From Scytalidium lignicola (taxonomy: Eukaryota; Ascomycota; Leotiomycetes), in assembly GCA_002812745.2 (NCBI GenBank), contig NCSJ02000131.1, positions 1 to 64,000 on the forward strand: DNA of 64,000 nucleotides, read 5' to 3'. This document shows, piece by piece, positions 14,160 to 37,548 of the stretch. Each line of letters starts with the position of its first letter. Position 1 is the first letter of the stretch. The position numbers were made by a program, and so were the translations under genes. The notes beneath the pieces are model-generated. The model saw only the letters and a list, made by a program, of their open reading frames with translations. It ran no database searches and was not told the DNA's origin.

Positions 14160-15398
14160 ATGCTCACTTTCAGGAGAGCCTTAATAGCGGCGGCGTGCTT
14201 CCTCACACTCTTCTACATCCTCACCAGAAGTCATTCTACCCCGACAGATAGTCATTCAATCGCCAAGCAAGCTCTAGATCCAGAATCAACGGAGAAATCC
14301 AATGGACAACCCCCAACGAGTTCGGCGTCCACGAACGCAGGATCCACTTCATCTTCTCAAAATCGACCGCACACCAAATCCAAGAAACTACACTCGAGCC
14401 AGCGATTATTAGCAGACCTCTCGAGATACCCTCTACGAGAAAAACTCTTATATCAATTTCCCTACGACGTCGAGACGAAGTTCCCTGCGTACATTTGGCA
14501 GACATGGAAATACACTCCCGCATCAGGGGATTTCGATGAAAAATTCCGTGCAGCGGAGGCAAGCTGGACTGAGATGCACCCAGGTTTCGTGCATGAGGTG
14601 ATAACAGATGATGTGGCCGTCCATCTCCTGCGGTATCTCTATGCCTCTATTCCAGAAGTCTTGGAGGCGTACCACGCTCTGCCCGTGCCGGTTTTGAAGG
14701 CTGATTTTTTCCGCTATCTCGTTCTGCTAGCCAGAGGCGGTATTTATTCCGATATTGACACATTCGCCATTCAATCTGCGGTTGATTGGCTCCCAGCAAG
14801 TGTTCCACAGGAAGCAGTAGGATTGGTCGTTGGCATTGAAGCAGATCCAGATCGACCAGACTGGGCAGATTGGTATTCCCGCAGAATCCAATTCTGCCAG
14901 TGGACCATCCAGGCCAAGCCCGGCCATCCTGTCCTCCGCGAAATCGTAGCACGGATTACGACTGAGACGCTGAAGCGGAAGAAGCAGCGTACCCTTGGAA
15001 CAGACAGCCACGGCGTGGTGGAATTCACGGGCCCGGCGATCTGGACGGATATTATTTTTGAATACTTCAACGACGAGAAGTACTTTGATGTTGCTTCGAG
15101 CAAGTCAAATATAACGTGGCGGGATTTTACGGGTATGGAGATGCCTAAGAAGGTTGGTGATGTAGTTGTCCTGCCCATCACTAGTTTTTCTCCGGGCGTG
15201 GGTCAGATGGGTGCTGGAGAATATGATGATCCAATGGCCTTTGTGAAGCACGATTTTGAAGGTTAGTTACGCCCGTTAAAAGTACATGCCAGGATTGGGG
15301 TGCTGACTGATTTACTAGGTACCTGGAAACCTGAAGAAGAACGGCACATTGGCGACATTGTGGAAGGGGAACAAGAGCCAGAGCAAGCTTCGCTCTGA
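14160..15398 (+). CDS. Och1-like alpha-1,6-mannosyltransferase (GT32), Golgi type II membrane protein
   Basis: There are two exons, 14,160-15,261 and 15,319-15,398, with a 57-bp intron (donor GTTAGT, branch CTGAC, acceptor TAG). The product is 393 residues. An N-terminal anchor at residues 5-22 is followed by a Ser/Thr/Gln-rich stem to about residue 80, the usual type II Golgi layout. The catalytic part starts at KFPAYIWQTWKY. The GT32 block KADFFRYLVLLARGGIYSD leads to the metal-binding D-x-D motif DID (residues 198-200). VVEFTGPAIWTDI and the C-terminal FEGTWKPEEERHIGD, completed only by exon 2, match fungal Och1 proteins. Och1 adds the first alpha-1,6-mannose to N-glycan cores in the early Golgi and starts the outer chain. 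It could instead be a paralogue such as Hoc1, and the acceptor cannot be told from sequence. The ATG at 14,160 is the only one that supplies the anchor. Confidence 0.9.
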
Positions 15399-29230: not shown

Positions 29231-30112
29231 ATTAAATGGAGAATAACTTAATTGAAGGTTGTAAAGTGGAAGAAATCTATTACATTTAAAGCTACACCGC
29301 TACTGTGGGGTAAAAAGTTGAGGTGGTTGGCGTATAGGCTAGACCATACACCAACTGTAATATTGGTTTGCGTATGGGCTAGACCATACACCAACCGTAA
29401 TATTGGTGTATGGGCTAGACCGTTGGTGTATGGGCTGGAACATATATAATAGTGCAACTGTCGAATTATCTAAGATTTTGCTCAATTTTACAGTACTCGT
29501 ATTATTGTGTGGCAATAGCTTTGTTCTTATTATGCGTGAGAGTATATGAGTTCGTATTTTCTGGCCAAACTAATTGGGCAATCATTTATTCGGGTCAACA
29601 TTATTGGAGGAGTGGTGTTACCCCGTTATCTCCAAAAAGATAAGCTAGGTTTATGCTTTGCAGAAAGCTCACTTTGAATGCATGCGTTGTGTTCCGATGT
29701 GTTGGCACAGCCGGTTGGTTGGCCTGACTCCTGCAGATGGTGTCTTAAGGTGGGTTCATAAATATCCTTCAGGGGATCAAGACCAATAGCTATCGCCTTT
29801 CGGAAATCCTGGGCCTGGTTCCCAATAGATGTAGCTCTGCAGTGTGGATACACGTGTATCGACAATGCGTTGTGTAATAATGCACCATTTTATTGCGTCG
29901 GTCGCAATTCCACACTGCTCTGAAAGAGTTGCAGATTTCAGGTACAAGAATGTCGTACCACCTGTGGATTAAGGGTATCTTTCAGACCACGCTGCTTCAC
30001 TTTTCAAGTCACAACATCATTGGCAGGTATAATATCTACTTAACCGATGGTTATTTCCCCCTCAATATGTATACGCAGCTAATCAAATAGTTAAGCAGCT
30101 TGTTTATCACCT
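29231..30112. other. Non-RIP island with tandem hairpin repeat, no recognised gene
   Basis: Composition returns to about 40-45% GC. The period-40 repeat at 29,325-29,441 is listed separately. Between 29,640 and 30,100 both strands have medium frames (for example an 80-codon minus frame ending at 29,865), but I see no family pattern. It directly precedes the SesA gene and may contain its promoter, a 5' exon or a decayed neighbour. Confidence 0.45.
29325..29441. repeat. Three-copy tandem repeat (period 40) with internal dyad symmetry
   Basis: Units start at 29,325, 29,365 and 29,405. Each unit contains TTGGYGTATRGG, a CTAG centre, and CCATACACCAA, so it can fold into a hairpin; TRTAATATT-like 9-base spacers separate the units. 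The third unit is rearranged: its second half repeats GTTGGTGTATGGGCT in direct orientation. It lies at the junction between AT-rich debris and the non-RIP island. Confidence 0.8.
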
Positions 30113-30802
30113 ATGCAACATATGGCAGGTTCCATCAAAATGCAACGCAGCGAAGTAGCTGAAATTAGCAGCTTGATGGATCAGGCACTCATCGGTATCC
30201 AATCTGCCAGGAAAATACCTGGCAATATTGATGATGCTGCTGCAGATCTTAACCAAGCCTTCCCGGCCTTTCAGAAAGTAGCGAATACATTGCCGCTTAT
30301 TCAAGAAACTCTTGAGAATTTCCGTGAGAATATACTTAAATTTAATCCAGATAAGAAAACTTGTCAGGACATAAAACCAGACTTAGAAATATTTAAAAAT
30401 AAGGCTATACGCCTAAAAGAAATATTTCATGAAGTCATTCCGGAAGCCGAGACTTCAAGAATGAGACGTTATCGCAAAGCTGCAAAGGGAGATCTGGTGG
30501 AGGATCTGATGAAGCAAATGATCAAACATATTCTTTATATCTTAAAGTTGCCAGCTATAAAGTTAGCAAGCCAAGAATACTTAAGAAACCTAGACAAGGC
30601 TTTCAAAGATCTATCGAAAATACCACGGTCACTGCCGGATGATGACTCTCCGTTTTCCTTCCACAATTATGGAGCAGGCTCTCAGAACATCCATACTGGC
30701 AGCGGAACCCAAAACAATAACAATGGCTCAGGATGCCAGTTTATTGGCAGCAAACAGGATTTCCAATTTGGTTCCACACCCCCTTTTCAACTAGCTAAGT
30801 AG
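30113..30802 (+). CDS. SesA-domain protein with C-terminal sigma-like amyloid motif (NLR-associated cell-death signalling)
   Basis: One exon of 229 residues. Residues about 35-175 match the SesA domain (found at the N-terminus of fungal STAND/NLR proteins and in stand-alone partners): FQKVANTLPLIQETLENF, then a C-x-D-x-K-P-x-L-E helix, RLKEIFHEVIPEAETSRMRR, and DLVEDLMKQMIKHI with a following LDKAFKDLSKIP helix. Residues 183-220 are a Gly/Asn/Gln tract with a nine-residue rhythm: GAGSQNIHT, GSGTQNNNN, GSGCQFIGS, then KQDFQFG. This resembles the sigma amyloid motif by which an NLR passes a prion-like fold to its effector. The usual job would be regulated cell death in non-self recognition, acting in the cytoplasm. 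Starts at 30,122 and 30,140 are equally possible. The gene is intact inside RIP-mutated transposon sequence. No NLR partner is visible in the window. Confidence 0.8.
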   Translation: MQHMAGSIKMQRSEVAEISSLMDQALIGIQSARKIPGNIDDAAADLNQAFPAFQKVANTLPLIQETLENFRENILKFNPDKKTCQDIKPDLEIFKNKAIRLKEIFHEVIPEAETSRMRRYRKAAKGDLVEDLMKQMIKHILYILKLPAIKLASQEYLRNLDKAFKDLSKIPRSLPDDDSPFSFHNYGAGSQNIHTGSGTQNNNNGSGCQFIGSKQDFQFGSTPPFQLAK

Positions 30803-33370: not shown

Positions 33371-34308
33371 TTAATTTTTGTTGAGGCCGAGGCCTAGCTC
33401 CTTAATGAAGATATCAGCTGCCTTTTCACTTATGGCCAATGCCGTGTTGTAGGTATTTGCCGCAACATTGCGCGGCACAATACTCAAGTCGGTAATCTTC
33501 AATCCCTGGACGTCGTAAACATTAAGCTTGGTATCGACGACACCCATCTTTTCAGGTGATGTCATTTTACACGTGCCTAATGAGTGCCAGGTAATTGTAA
33601 CGTTTTCACGCAGTCACCGTTCAAGAACGGCATCATCCTCAGGTGTATACTCGATGTCCTGTATATCTGTAAGTGGGCCATCTGTCTCGATGCATGCGGC
33701 TTTTGTTGCTGCCGTAAGGGGGTGGCTGCCCGTAACTTCACCTCGATAAGTTTCCATGCGACGCATGATCTCACGTTGCTTCTTGTATGCCCACATATGC
33801 TTCTTTATGTCAATGCTGTGAGCACCAGAAAAGAAGCTAGTTTCGAAGTCGAGTTTGTCATTCAGCTCGGGGCCTGTGATATGGATGTGACCTCGGGAAT
33901 AAGGGTACACAGAGAAGACTGACATGGTCGGGGTTAGGCTCGATTTATAAGGATATACTAATAGATTATGATCCTCCACCAAGAACACCTCCAGAGGCAA
34001 CAATGACTTCTCTGTCAGCCAGTTGTTTTTCCATGTTCCCCTTGTAAAATATGCTCGTCTTGCTAGTAGGATGGGAAAAGAAGAAGGCTGGGTGGGCGAC
34101 GCTTGGCATATCATTATTTGTACCGCCCTCCATGACCAAAATAGACAGGCCTAGGTCCACGTCAGCAAGTCTTGCTGCAATGACACAACTAAAAGCTAAA
34201 GAATTAAATCAGTGATTAATCTCGCTCGAGAATGGACTTATTCTCACCGCCGGCTATGATTACATCCACCTCCTTGATATCATCAAGAAGTTTAGTATAT
34301 AGCCCCAT
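33371..34308 (-). pseudogene. Alcohol (methanol) oxidase, GMC family, internally deleted pseudogene
   Basis: On the minus strand ATG at 34,308 starts MGLYTKLLDD, followed by VDVIIAGG of the FAD-binding fold, then an apparent 50-60 bp intron. The continuation CVIAARLADVDLGLSILVME, HPAFFFSHPTSKTSIFYKGN and REVIVASGGVLGGGS is the N-terminal part of fungal alcohol oxidases. At about 33,965 it jumps directly to the C-terminal part: SVYPYSRGHIHITGPELND, IDIKKHMWAYKKQREIMRRM, CIETDGPL, a TGA at 33,614-33,616 where Trp is expected, TWHSLGTCKM, VYDVQGLKI and NVAANTYNTALAI. Roughly 300 central residues are missing (family length about 660). The remnant keeps high similarity and only one nonsense codon, so the loss looks fairly recent. 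The parent enzyme is a peroxisomal FAD oxidase of short alcohols. Confidence 0.85.
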
Positions 34309-35008: not shown

Positions 35009-35059
35009 GGCCATATCTAAATCCCCGCCAGACTTAGCTAAATCCACGCCAAACCACCG
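35009..35059 (+). repeat. MULE left terminal inverted repeat
   Basis: 51 bp identical to the reverse complement of 37,498-37,548. It ends CCAAACCACCG, after which the two ends diverge. Confidence 0.93.
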
Positions 35060-35245
35060 ATACCGGTGCCTCTCCCGACAACTTTCACCCATACATTTTA
35101 TTAGTAATAATGATACACTAATAGATACAGGACTAGTATAGTAAAATTCTACATCGCACGTATTATCTCAAATTCAACACGTCAAAATTGAAGCTATTCA
35201 GACTTGTATTACCTTAAATTATTTAACTTTCAAATCTCAAATACA

Positions 35246-37370
35246 ATGGCACCTTGTGGACCTGCTCCCCCAGAAGATTTTTACCCTGATATTGACCAAT
35301 TATACAACTCAATTCAGGCTTTTGCAAAGATCAATGGATATGCCTTTTCCAGACGCGATAAAAAGGCTAAAAGGGTAGTGTTTATATGCGATAGAGGTGG
35401 CCCATATAACCCCAAAGGAAAGAAAGCTGGAATTGACCCTTCTAAACAACGCCAAACAGCCACTAAAAAGAGCAATTGCCAGATGAAGATTGCGGCTATT
35501 GCTAAAGGTGATGGGTGGAGAGTCCAGGTTATAGAGCCTACCCATAACCACGAAGCCTCTTCTTACGCTGCAGCCCATACAAGCCATAGAAGAGCAGCTC
35601 TGGGCTCTGAATTAAAGGCAGAGATCATAGCCAAAGCCCAAAGCGGCATTAAGAATGCTCAAATATTGAGTTTCCTTCGACTTTACCACCCAACTCATTT
35701 GACCGGCAAAGACATCTCCAATATAATTCAAGCTACTAGGGCAGAGGAATTAGGTGGTAGGACTCCTTTAGAGTGGCTATTGTATGTCAATACTTGTTCC
35801 TGCTTCTATTATTTGCTAATAAATTAGGCTACAACTTAAGGAAAAGGATTGCAACCCAACATATACTGTCGATGATGCCAATCGCCTGGTCCACCTGTTT
35901 TTTATCCATCCTGATGCTATTCCCATATATCAACAACATTCAAATATATTATTGCTTGATTGTACATATAAAACAAACTGGTTTCAAATGCTACTTCTCA
36001 ATATATGTGCAATAACAGGCAACAACAAAGTGATTCAGGTTGGGTTAGCTTTTCTCTCAAATGAGAAAGAAGCCGCATACAAGTGGGCTTTGCGTCGGTT
36101 CAAGGAAGTAATGTACAAATATAATATTCAAGAGCCAATCTCTATAGTAACTGATAAGGAATTGGCTCTAATGAATTGTATTGATACATATTTCCCAGAG
36201 TCCTACCATCGCCTTTGCCAGTAGCATGTCAATATGAATGTATTGGCTAAAACCAAAAGGTTTTTCCCTCCCCCAATTAAGGAAAATGGTATTTATAAAA
36301 AGCATGCTACTTTTCAAGCTTTTTTGAAGTTATGGAAAGAGGTTTTAGATTCTAGAACCTTCGAATCCTATTCATTTAATCTCACTAAATTGCGTGCTTA
36401 TCCTGGTGAAGCGGTCAAATACGTGGAAAACACTTGGTTAATTCCTTGGAGAGAGAAATTAGTTTGATTTTGGGTTGATAAACACCCTCATTTTGGAGTC
36501 CTTGTTAGCTCTCCAATTGAAGGCTGTCATAGCACTTTAAAATCTTATTTGCAAAAAGGGAATGAGGACTTCAACAAAGTGTTCTATAAGATGTGGCTCT
36601 TCTGGGAACACCAAAAAGACAGTATAAAATTGGCGATTTCTCAAGAATCACTTCGAAGACGGCATAGTATTGCCAATCCTTTACTCTCTCTTGTAAACCA
36701 AAAAGTCTACGATTGTGCTTTGAAGAAAATTCAACAGGAGATGGCTAAAATTCCGAAAAATGGCTATATAAACCCCATTTGTCAGTGTACAATTCAGCAA
36801 TCTATTAGCTTGCCATGCTTTCATACAATATGAGAACGTTAATACAACAATAGCCCAATATTACTTGAAGATATACACCCACATTGGCATTATCATAAAC
36901 ATCTTGAAGATGGGTTAATCTAATCTATCCAAGAACCTCTATTTCAACCATTAGTTGTCAACGGGAAAGGCAGACCTAAAGGAGCGTTAGGAAAGGCTCA
37001 AGGCCCAAACGCAAATTCCAGTACAAAACGCTTACCCTCTGCCTTCGAATTGCCAAGTAGTTCAGCTCCACCAGCAATAGAAAGTTCAACGTTTAGATCA
37101 CCTCCTCTACAAGAAGAGCCTGGTAACAAACAAATATATATTACTAGGACTGGCCGTACAGCTACTAGAATTGGCTTACAACGTATTCAAGAAGTAGGTG
37201 ATACGTATGAGCCTGGGACAATGCCAGAGCGAGCATACCGGCGTGGAATATCGTCTATATTCCATACAGATTCAATTGTGGATACTGAGCAATTTCTTGA
37301 TAAGGCAATAACCACAGAAGTGGTGGAAGAGTCACAAAAAACTCAAGATTGTATTGTAGTAGAAGTGTAG
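35246..37370 (+). pseudogene. MULE transposase with FAR1/WRKY-GCM1-like zinc finger, five nonsense mutations
   Basis: ATG at 35,246 (MAPCGPAPPEDF). A zinc-finger DNA-binding part follows with ligands in FICDRGG, KKSNCQMK and PTHNHE. One 46-bp intron at 35,782-35,827 (donor GTATGT, branch GCTAAT, acceptor TTAG) keeps the frame. The catalytic core has the DDE triad intact: Asp in LLLDCTYKTNW (35,958-35,960), Asp in SIVTDKELAL (36,153-36,155) and Glu in SPIEGCHSTLKSYL (36,519-36,521). Stops at 36,222 (TAG), 36,465 (TGA), 36,831 (TGA), 36,840 (TAA) and 36,921 (TAA) interrupt an otherwise continuous frame. Each can derive from TGG or CAA by one C-to-T or G-to-A change. A C-terminal CQCTIQQSISLPCFH zinc-knuckle-like block and a basic tail with KGRPKGALGKAQ (AT-hook-like) follow to the final TAG at 37,370. 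Confidence 0.9.
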
Positions 37371-37497
37371 TTTAGTGGATTCATCTGGATTGAATCAATT
37401 GCACAAATGTCATCACTAAATCTCCTTACACCATACTAATTTGTATGCGACCGTGAGATACGATTATGTTGGGGTGAAGCCCGGTGGGGTCCGACAC

Positions 37498-37548
37498 CGG
37501 TGGTTTGGCGTGGATTTAGCTAAGTCTGGCGGGGATTTAGATATGGCC
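37498..37548 (-). repeat. MULE right terminal inverted repeat
   Basis: Perfect inverse copy of 35,009-35,059, followed by the target-site duplication. Confidence 0.93.

Follow-up and report, generated by a model that had tools for sequence, protein, structure and literature searches.

The window analysed here, a 64,000-nucleotide stretch of DNA from Scytalidium lignicola, encodes a single-exon protein in which a SesA domain is followed by a sigma amyloid motif (Table 1); by a measure taken over alignment columns, the conserved hydrophobic helix I at the N-terminus of SesA is absent from this protein, and the same change is found in its closest relative, from a Xylogone species. Because the hydrophobic helix is lost and the tail is kept, the protein may well be a maintained, non-lethal sigma-amyloid protein that acts as a brake or sink on sigma signaling or as the carrier of a prion-like state, its own sigma NLR having been lost or having diverged; this interpretation of the assembled evidence is held with belief and doubt in equal measure. 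The parts are known, and what is new is their combination, namely a sigma-bearing SesA protein without a detected partner whose helix is altered in two genera. Among the papers listed by a literature search, outside whose scope most subscription journals lie, none describes a partnerless sigma SesA protein with an altered helix in its title or the start of its abstract.

Table 1. Features of the SesA–sigma gene and of another gene in the window.
Feature	Coordinates	Strand	Remarks
SesA–sigma protein gene	30113..30802	+	single-exon ORF, 229 aa; probable start 30122, giving 226 aa
Helix I, residues 14-34	30152..30214	+	polar, where other SesA proteins have a hydrophobic, Gly-rich helix at the N-terminus
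SesA domain, residues 41-140	30233..30532	+	Pfam PF17107, profile positions 16-119
Sigma amyloid motif, residues 181-214	30653..30754	+	Pfam PF17106 (NACHT_sigma)
Three nine-residue GxGxQ units, residues 187-213	30671..30751	+	
Tail end, residues 205-229	30725..30799	+	23/25 identical to the Xylogone ortholog
Glycosyltransferase gene, product 100% identical to B7463_g6985	14160-15266		

The earlier note, which was made from the sequence alone, had described an intact single-exon gene with a SesA-type helical domain and a sigma-like tail in which GxGxQ recurs three times with a nine-residue rhythm, and each of these elements is borne out. The 229-aa frame is open on the plus strand; its SesA domain matches PF17107 at 1.8e-20 (73.7 bits against a curated Pfam cut-off of 26.3), with profile positions 1-15 unmatched, and the tail, whose comparison with profiles of fungal amyloid motifs had been proposed, matches NACHT_sigma at 1.1e-8 (35.5 bits, curated cut-off 27.6). 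The GxGxQ units begin at residues 187, 196 and 205, and none of 200,000 shuffled versions of the 47-residue tail has three of them at this spacing of nine. In the available part of PMC3321046 (Daskalov et al. 2012), the sigma motif is defined by a motif A, GxGxQFNxx, and a motif B, GGTQNINT, present three times in varying order, a definition that the tail sequence fits; fibril formation by the het-eN sigma peptide is given there as unpublished results. The start at 30113 is probably nine bases early, since the database gene model P0002 (226 aa) and, by alignment, the Xylogone ortholog begin at the second ATG. Foldseek returned 0 matches for the window protein against the PDB at E<=0.001, and a phmmer search of PDB chains gave 11 matches at E<=10, the best of which (0.0014) is a designed helical protein.

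To compare helix I, the window protein was aligned with 119 homologs among the matches listed (of 268), P0002 being omitted as identical; the Xylogone ortholog, P0003, is one of the 119, and in all the other 118 the first helix has stayed hydrophobic and rich in Gly. Over 15 helix-I columns the Kyte-Doolittle mean of these 118 listed homologs is 2.43 (SD 0.16, minimum 1.89), against 1.22 for the window protein and 1.07 for P0003; the helix is retained in the eight listed comparators that have SesA together with NACHT_sigma, at 2.43-2.82 over the same columns. Polar residues (D, E, K, R, Q, N) are absent from these columns in 115/118 homologs and number one in 3/118, compared with three each in the window protein and P0003, which carry D and Q at two sites where the other 118 listed have S, A, G or, at the second site in two rows, N. 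A first measure, the best 18 residues among the first 45, had placed rows P0107 and P0044 below the window protein; the longer models of these two rows appear to put extra residues ahead of the SesA start, and the 15-column measure was made because they seem to distort the first. By a third hydrophobicity measure P0107 is lowest at 0.01, with P0003 at 0.23 and P0001 at 0.28, the mean being 0.64. At the column that aligns with Met10, 116/118 of the other listed homologs have Met, and 115/118 have no residues just before it; Xylogone has Leu in this column, so the N-terminus has probably been lengthened, and a short N-terminal extension probably precedes helix I in the window protein.

A profile covering helix I together with the residues that follow was made from 116/118 rows, leaving out P0107 and P0044. 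Five SesA proteins with a sigma motif, all of which belong to the training set, score 57-68 bits with it, and a paralog outside that set (C47) scores 74.5 bits; P0003 reaches 1.3 bits, and the window ORF has no match at E<=10. A missed upstream exon bearing the usual helix was sought and not found, the best plus-strand match upstream being 2.2 bits. The profile is narrow, in that two further SesA genes of the genome (C388 and C44) score just 11.9 and 10.6 bits in spite of hydrophobic N-termini; the best 18 N-terminal residues have a hydrophobicity of 1.88 in C388, 1.78 in C44, 1.32 in C21 and 0.88 in the window protein. In multiple alignments, P0098 from Penicillium oxalicum, P0091 from Fusarium oxysporum and P0117 from Monosporascus share the domain order at 38-41% identity, but the Pfam SesA match is complete in P0098 and P0117 (positions 1-122; 145 and 142 bits, respectively) and partial in the window protein (16-119, 73.7 bits). 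The reading of the gene as a member of a SesA–sigma system stands as far as the domains go; the alteration of helix I, the presumed killing part, was not visible from the sequence alone.

The pathway outlined in the available parts of PMC12881547 and PMC10197012 involves the oligomerisation of an NLR, whose amyloid motif templates the tail of the effector, and an attack on the membrane by the N-terminal helix of the effector. By homology, the sigma tail would become amyloid when templated by another sigma motif; in an ordinary SesA protein this conversion would free the helical bundle at the N-terminus for its attack on the membrane. The window protein has a polar residue pattern in this presumed membrane helix and a bundle and tail that are conserved in two species; a polar helix with a kept tail would yield a non-lethal amyloid, serving as a sink, a brake or the carrier of an amyloid state. 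Amyloid formation, the loss of killing and any antagonist role are what we infer for the window protein.

The textbook example in which killing has been uncoupled from an amyloid signal is the pair HET-s and HET-S, in that instance as two alleles. The logic of HET-s from Podospora anserina is comparable, as the amyloid tail is retained and the N-terminal killing helix is altered; within the available part of PMC10197012 it is described as a natural HeLo-dead variant, arising through one change in an N-terminal helix, that still forms amyloid. HET-s differs from the window protein in belonging to the HeLo family, in carrying the HET-s motif and in being an allelic variant rather than a change common to two species. 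A killer-helix-dead sigma effector standing in two genera as a non-lethal, prion-like carrier or brake of sigma signaling that works without an NLR of its own would be an interspecies counterpart of small-s HET-s; taken in this full form, the proposal is tentative and more doubtful than not.

Several observations weigh against the reading as a maintained, non-lethal sigma-amyloid protein. The AF2 model of the window protein has a helix spanning residues 5-33, with pLDDT block means of 89 and 95 for residues 11-30. The four-helix bundle of MLKL kills without a Gly-rich hydrophobic first helix; together with the well-formed helix I of the model, this makes an amphipathic killer helix possible. 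Further points on this side are the narrowness of the helix-I profile, the score of the P0003 sigma motif below the Pfam cut-off (23.0 bits for NACHT_sigma against 27.6) and the conservation of the sigma region, which is no higher than that of the rest of the protein (27/34 identical to P0003 in residues 181-214, 175/226 overall, insertion not counted).

The main alternative to a non-lethal protein is an ordinary SesA executioner, still lethal and switched on via the sigma tail by an NLR encoded elsewhere in the genome, with a motif that is split by an intron, diverged or unreached by the searches. The available part of PMC3321046 lends this precedent: SesA effectors there have the same order of SesA then sigma, an unlinked sigma protein is known (EEU38904.1), and an unnoticed 5' intron at first kept the sigma motif of het-eN from being recognized. 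The SesA–sigma protein of N. haematococca, again as given in the accessible text, likewise has SesA and then a C-terminal sigma of three repeated units, and spans 210 codons; compared by description with that system, the window gene is without an adjacent NLR match among those listed and has helix I replaced.

The partner NLR was sought in a copy of the assembly of 46.85 Mb in 664 contigs, in which the window lies on a contig of 112,698 bp (C35). The published Ion Torrent assembly of S. lignicola, a saprotroph also able to live as an opportunist, comprises 47.7 Mb in 826 contigs and is 97.6% complete by BUSCO (PMC6256649), so the searched copy may lack some of it. NLR-type matches in the genome number 56 for NACHT, 14 for NB-ARC and at least 134 for NPHP3_N (150/157 candidates scored), and among the matches listed none of the three families occurs on C35, with the same 150/157 scored for NPHP3_N. 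A genome search with NACHT_sigma at E<=1 gave a single match, the window gene, from 2 candidates of a heuristic first look. Queries at E<=10 with the window tail and the P. oxalicum tail returned the window gene alone, and the C47 tail returned C47 alone, revealing no third place; that the window and C47 tails miss each other marks the limit of single-tail queries. The 5' letters (~1 to 3 kb) were read at 90 places, at least one of them counted twice, made up of 56 NACHT, 14 NB-ARC and 20 further NPHP3_N places, and the canonical sigma motif was not found in this set of ~90, which covers some of the NLR starts. A sigma profile built from 10 sequences and run on 101 loci matched the window gene alone at 73.7 bits, the next score being 6.4 bits.

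These results, together with a helix I that is not the usual hydrophobic one, speak against the ordinary executioner; the at least 134 NPHP3_N matches, which leave many NLR-like 5' ends outside those read, speak for it, and we regard it as rather unlikely, though with an appreciable share of the probability. Since genes were matched exon by exon, only the best first-look candidates were scored and het-eN sets a precedent for an intron-hidden motif, the absence of a sigma NLR is likely rather than proven; as judged from the assembly, S. lignicola is likely to be without a canonical sigma NLR partner. The suggestion in the earlier note that the gene stands alone, its NLR lost or far away, fits both the lack of a listed NLR match on C35 and the window gene being the sole NACHT_sigma match at E<=1. 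The check that it proposed, for an NLR with a matching motif, yielded none in the NACHT_sigma search or the ~90 5' ends, with the reservation that the search is heuristic and that C47 carries a sigma-like stretch of 9.9 bits.

Further SesA matches in the genome are C47, C44, C388 and C21, the last under the cut-off; C44 has an NB-ARC match after SesA on the same strand. At C388 (L006 / L020) a SesA gene lies beside an NPHP3_N/NACHT receptor on the opposite strand, a candidate effector–receptor pair. At C47 (L002 878-2959) SesA is followed by the divergent sigma-like stretch, and an intron at L002 1500-1660 (GTAAGA...TTTGCAG) would fuse SesA in frame to NACHT, predicting an all-in-one receptor. 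C47 was considered as a matching sigma NLR and rejected: its stretch scores 9.9 bits against the Pfam cut-off of 27.6, and the 10-sequence sigma profile gives it 5.0 bits; it reached 48.6 bits solely with a profile that itself included C47, and is at best a divergent relative. P0096 of Rasamsonia combines SesA, NACHT_sigma and NPHP3_N in one protein by Pfam, and N-termini combining HeLo-like and sigma are already in print, as seen in the available part of PMC9815663. An NLR N-terminal stretch at L036 ~1190-1290 with YGGNVHLGNIIHG is possibly another amyloid signaling motif.

The closest protein to that of the window is P0003 (F5884DRAFT_748745) from Xylogone sp. PMI_703, which is 76-77% identical over its own length, tail included. 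Identity is 27/37 in residues 4-40, 80/100 in the SesA domain (41-140) and 27/40 in residues 141-180; P0003 has the same altered helix and nearly the same tail end, and differs by a three-residue IHT insertion in the sigma motif and by its sub-cut-off NACHT_sigma score. In a tree of 22 chosen rows of the 120, with P0096 trimmed to its first 215 residues, the window protein and P0003 group with 7/8 sigma-bearing rows (support 92/93, short of what earns a star from the tool). The stem of the pair measures 1.15 changes per column and its tips 0.12 and 0.15; the long stem could reflect a burst of change followed by constraint, relaxed constraint or unsampled lineages.

The long stem, the degenerate helix I, the weak sigma motif of P0003 and the partner NLR not found in the searches would also suit a decaying relic, in which the sigma NLR disappeared, the killing helix was then lost and the gene is drifting to loss. 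Set against such decay is a frame uninterrupted in two species at 77% identity, near the 85% of the window glycosyltransferase and its Xylogone ortholog P0123, and a tail end kept at 23/25; neutral sequence would be expected to gain frameshifts by such a distance. Decay is considered improbable.

The ortholog also bears on the age of the locus. P0003 and P0123 each lie on a Xylogone contig of 8,210,761 bases, presumably the same one given the equal size, and with 77% identity to an ortholog on a contig that appears to bear the counterpart of another window gene, the SesA–sigma gene is an old resident rather than a newcomer. The recent arrival entertained by the earlier note is contradicted by this placement, which equally opposes a recent transposition or transfer of the gene. 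In favor of such an arrival are the RIPed blocks on either side of the island and, within the island, a MULE at 35009-37548, 4.2 kb downstream of the gene, whose terminal inverted repeats match at 63/71 over the arms and whose 11-bp target duplication is perfect. The SesA gene lies outside the ends of this element, so capture by the adjacent MULE is rejected, and an arrival of the gene into the transposon block in recent times is highly improbable. The MULE has FAR1 and MULE domains with in-frame stops between adjacent frame pieces, and its MULE segment has 71 matches in the genome, itself counted. Other features near the gene are a short tandem array just upstream at 29324-29444 (2.5 copies with a period of 40 bp, accompanied by related partial units) and a GMC oxidoreductase gene fragment at 33371-33610 on the minus strand (GMC_oxred_C, 7e-16); the neighboring same-strand frame pieces 33614-34147 and 33966-34205 have no Pfam match.

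By its RIP indices the region at 25-29 kb is affected, and that at 38-63 kb is for the most part RIP-like or affected; the interval 29.5-37 kb is mostly RIP-free, with weakly positive values at ~32.3-32.7 and ~34.3-35.2 kb. The SesA–sigma gene, with a strongly negative composite RIP index of -1.18, thus sits inside a largely RIP-free island of ~7.5 kb. RIP on both sides, as had been claimed, is present at some distance, roughly 1 kb on the upstream side and 7-8 kb on the downstream side, but the island of the gene itself is mostly clean. RIP targets repeated DNA, and for this reason little is proved by finding a single-copy gene intact next to RIPed repeats; the undamaged frame, offered before as a sign of selection despite RIP, is a weak argument in an island that is mostly un-RIPed, and the ortholog is the better evidence of constraint.

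If the helix has been lost and the tail kept in two genera, the uncoupling of amyloid from killing can be stable in evolution. A non-lethal sigma-amyloid protein of this kind would offer a natural means of finding out whether sigma amyloid functions by itself, something hinted at by the bistable Secteur trait of Nectria; should the window protein still kill, SesA has no need of the hydrophobic helix, and this would be equally informative.
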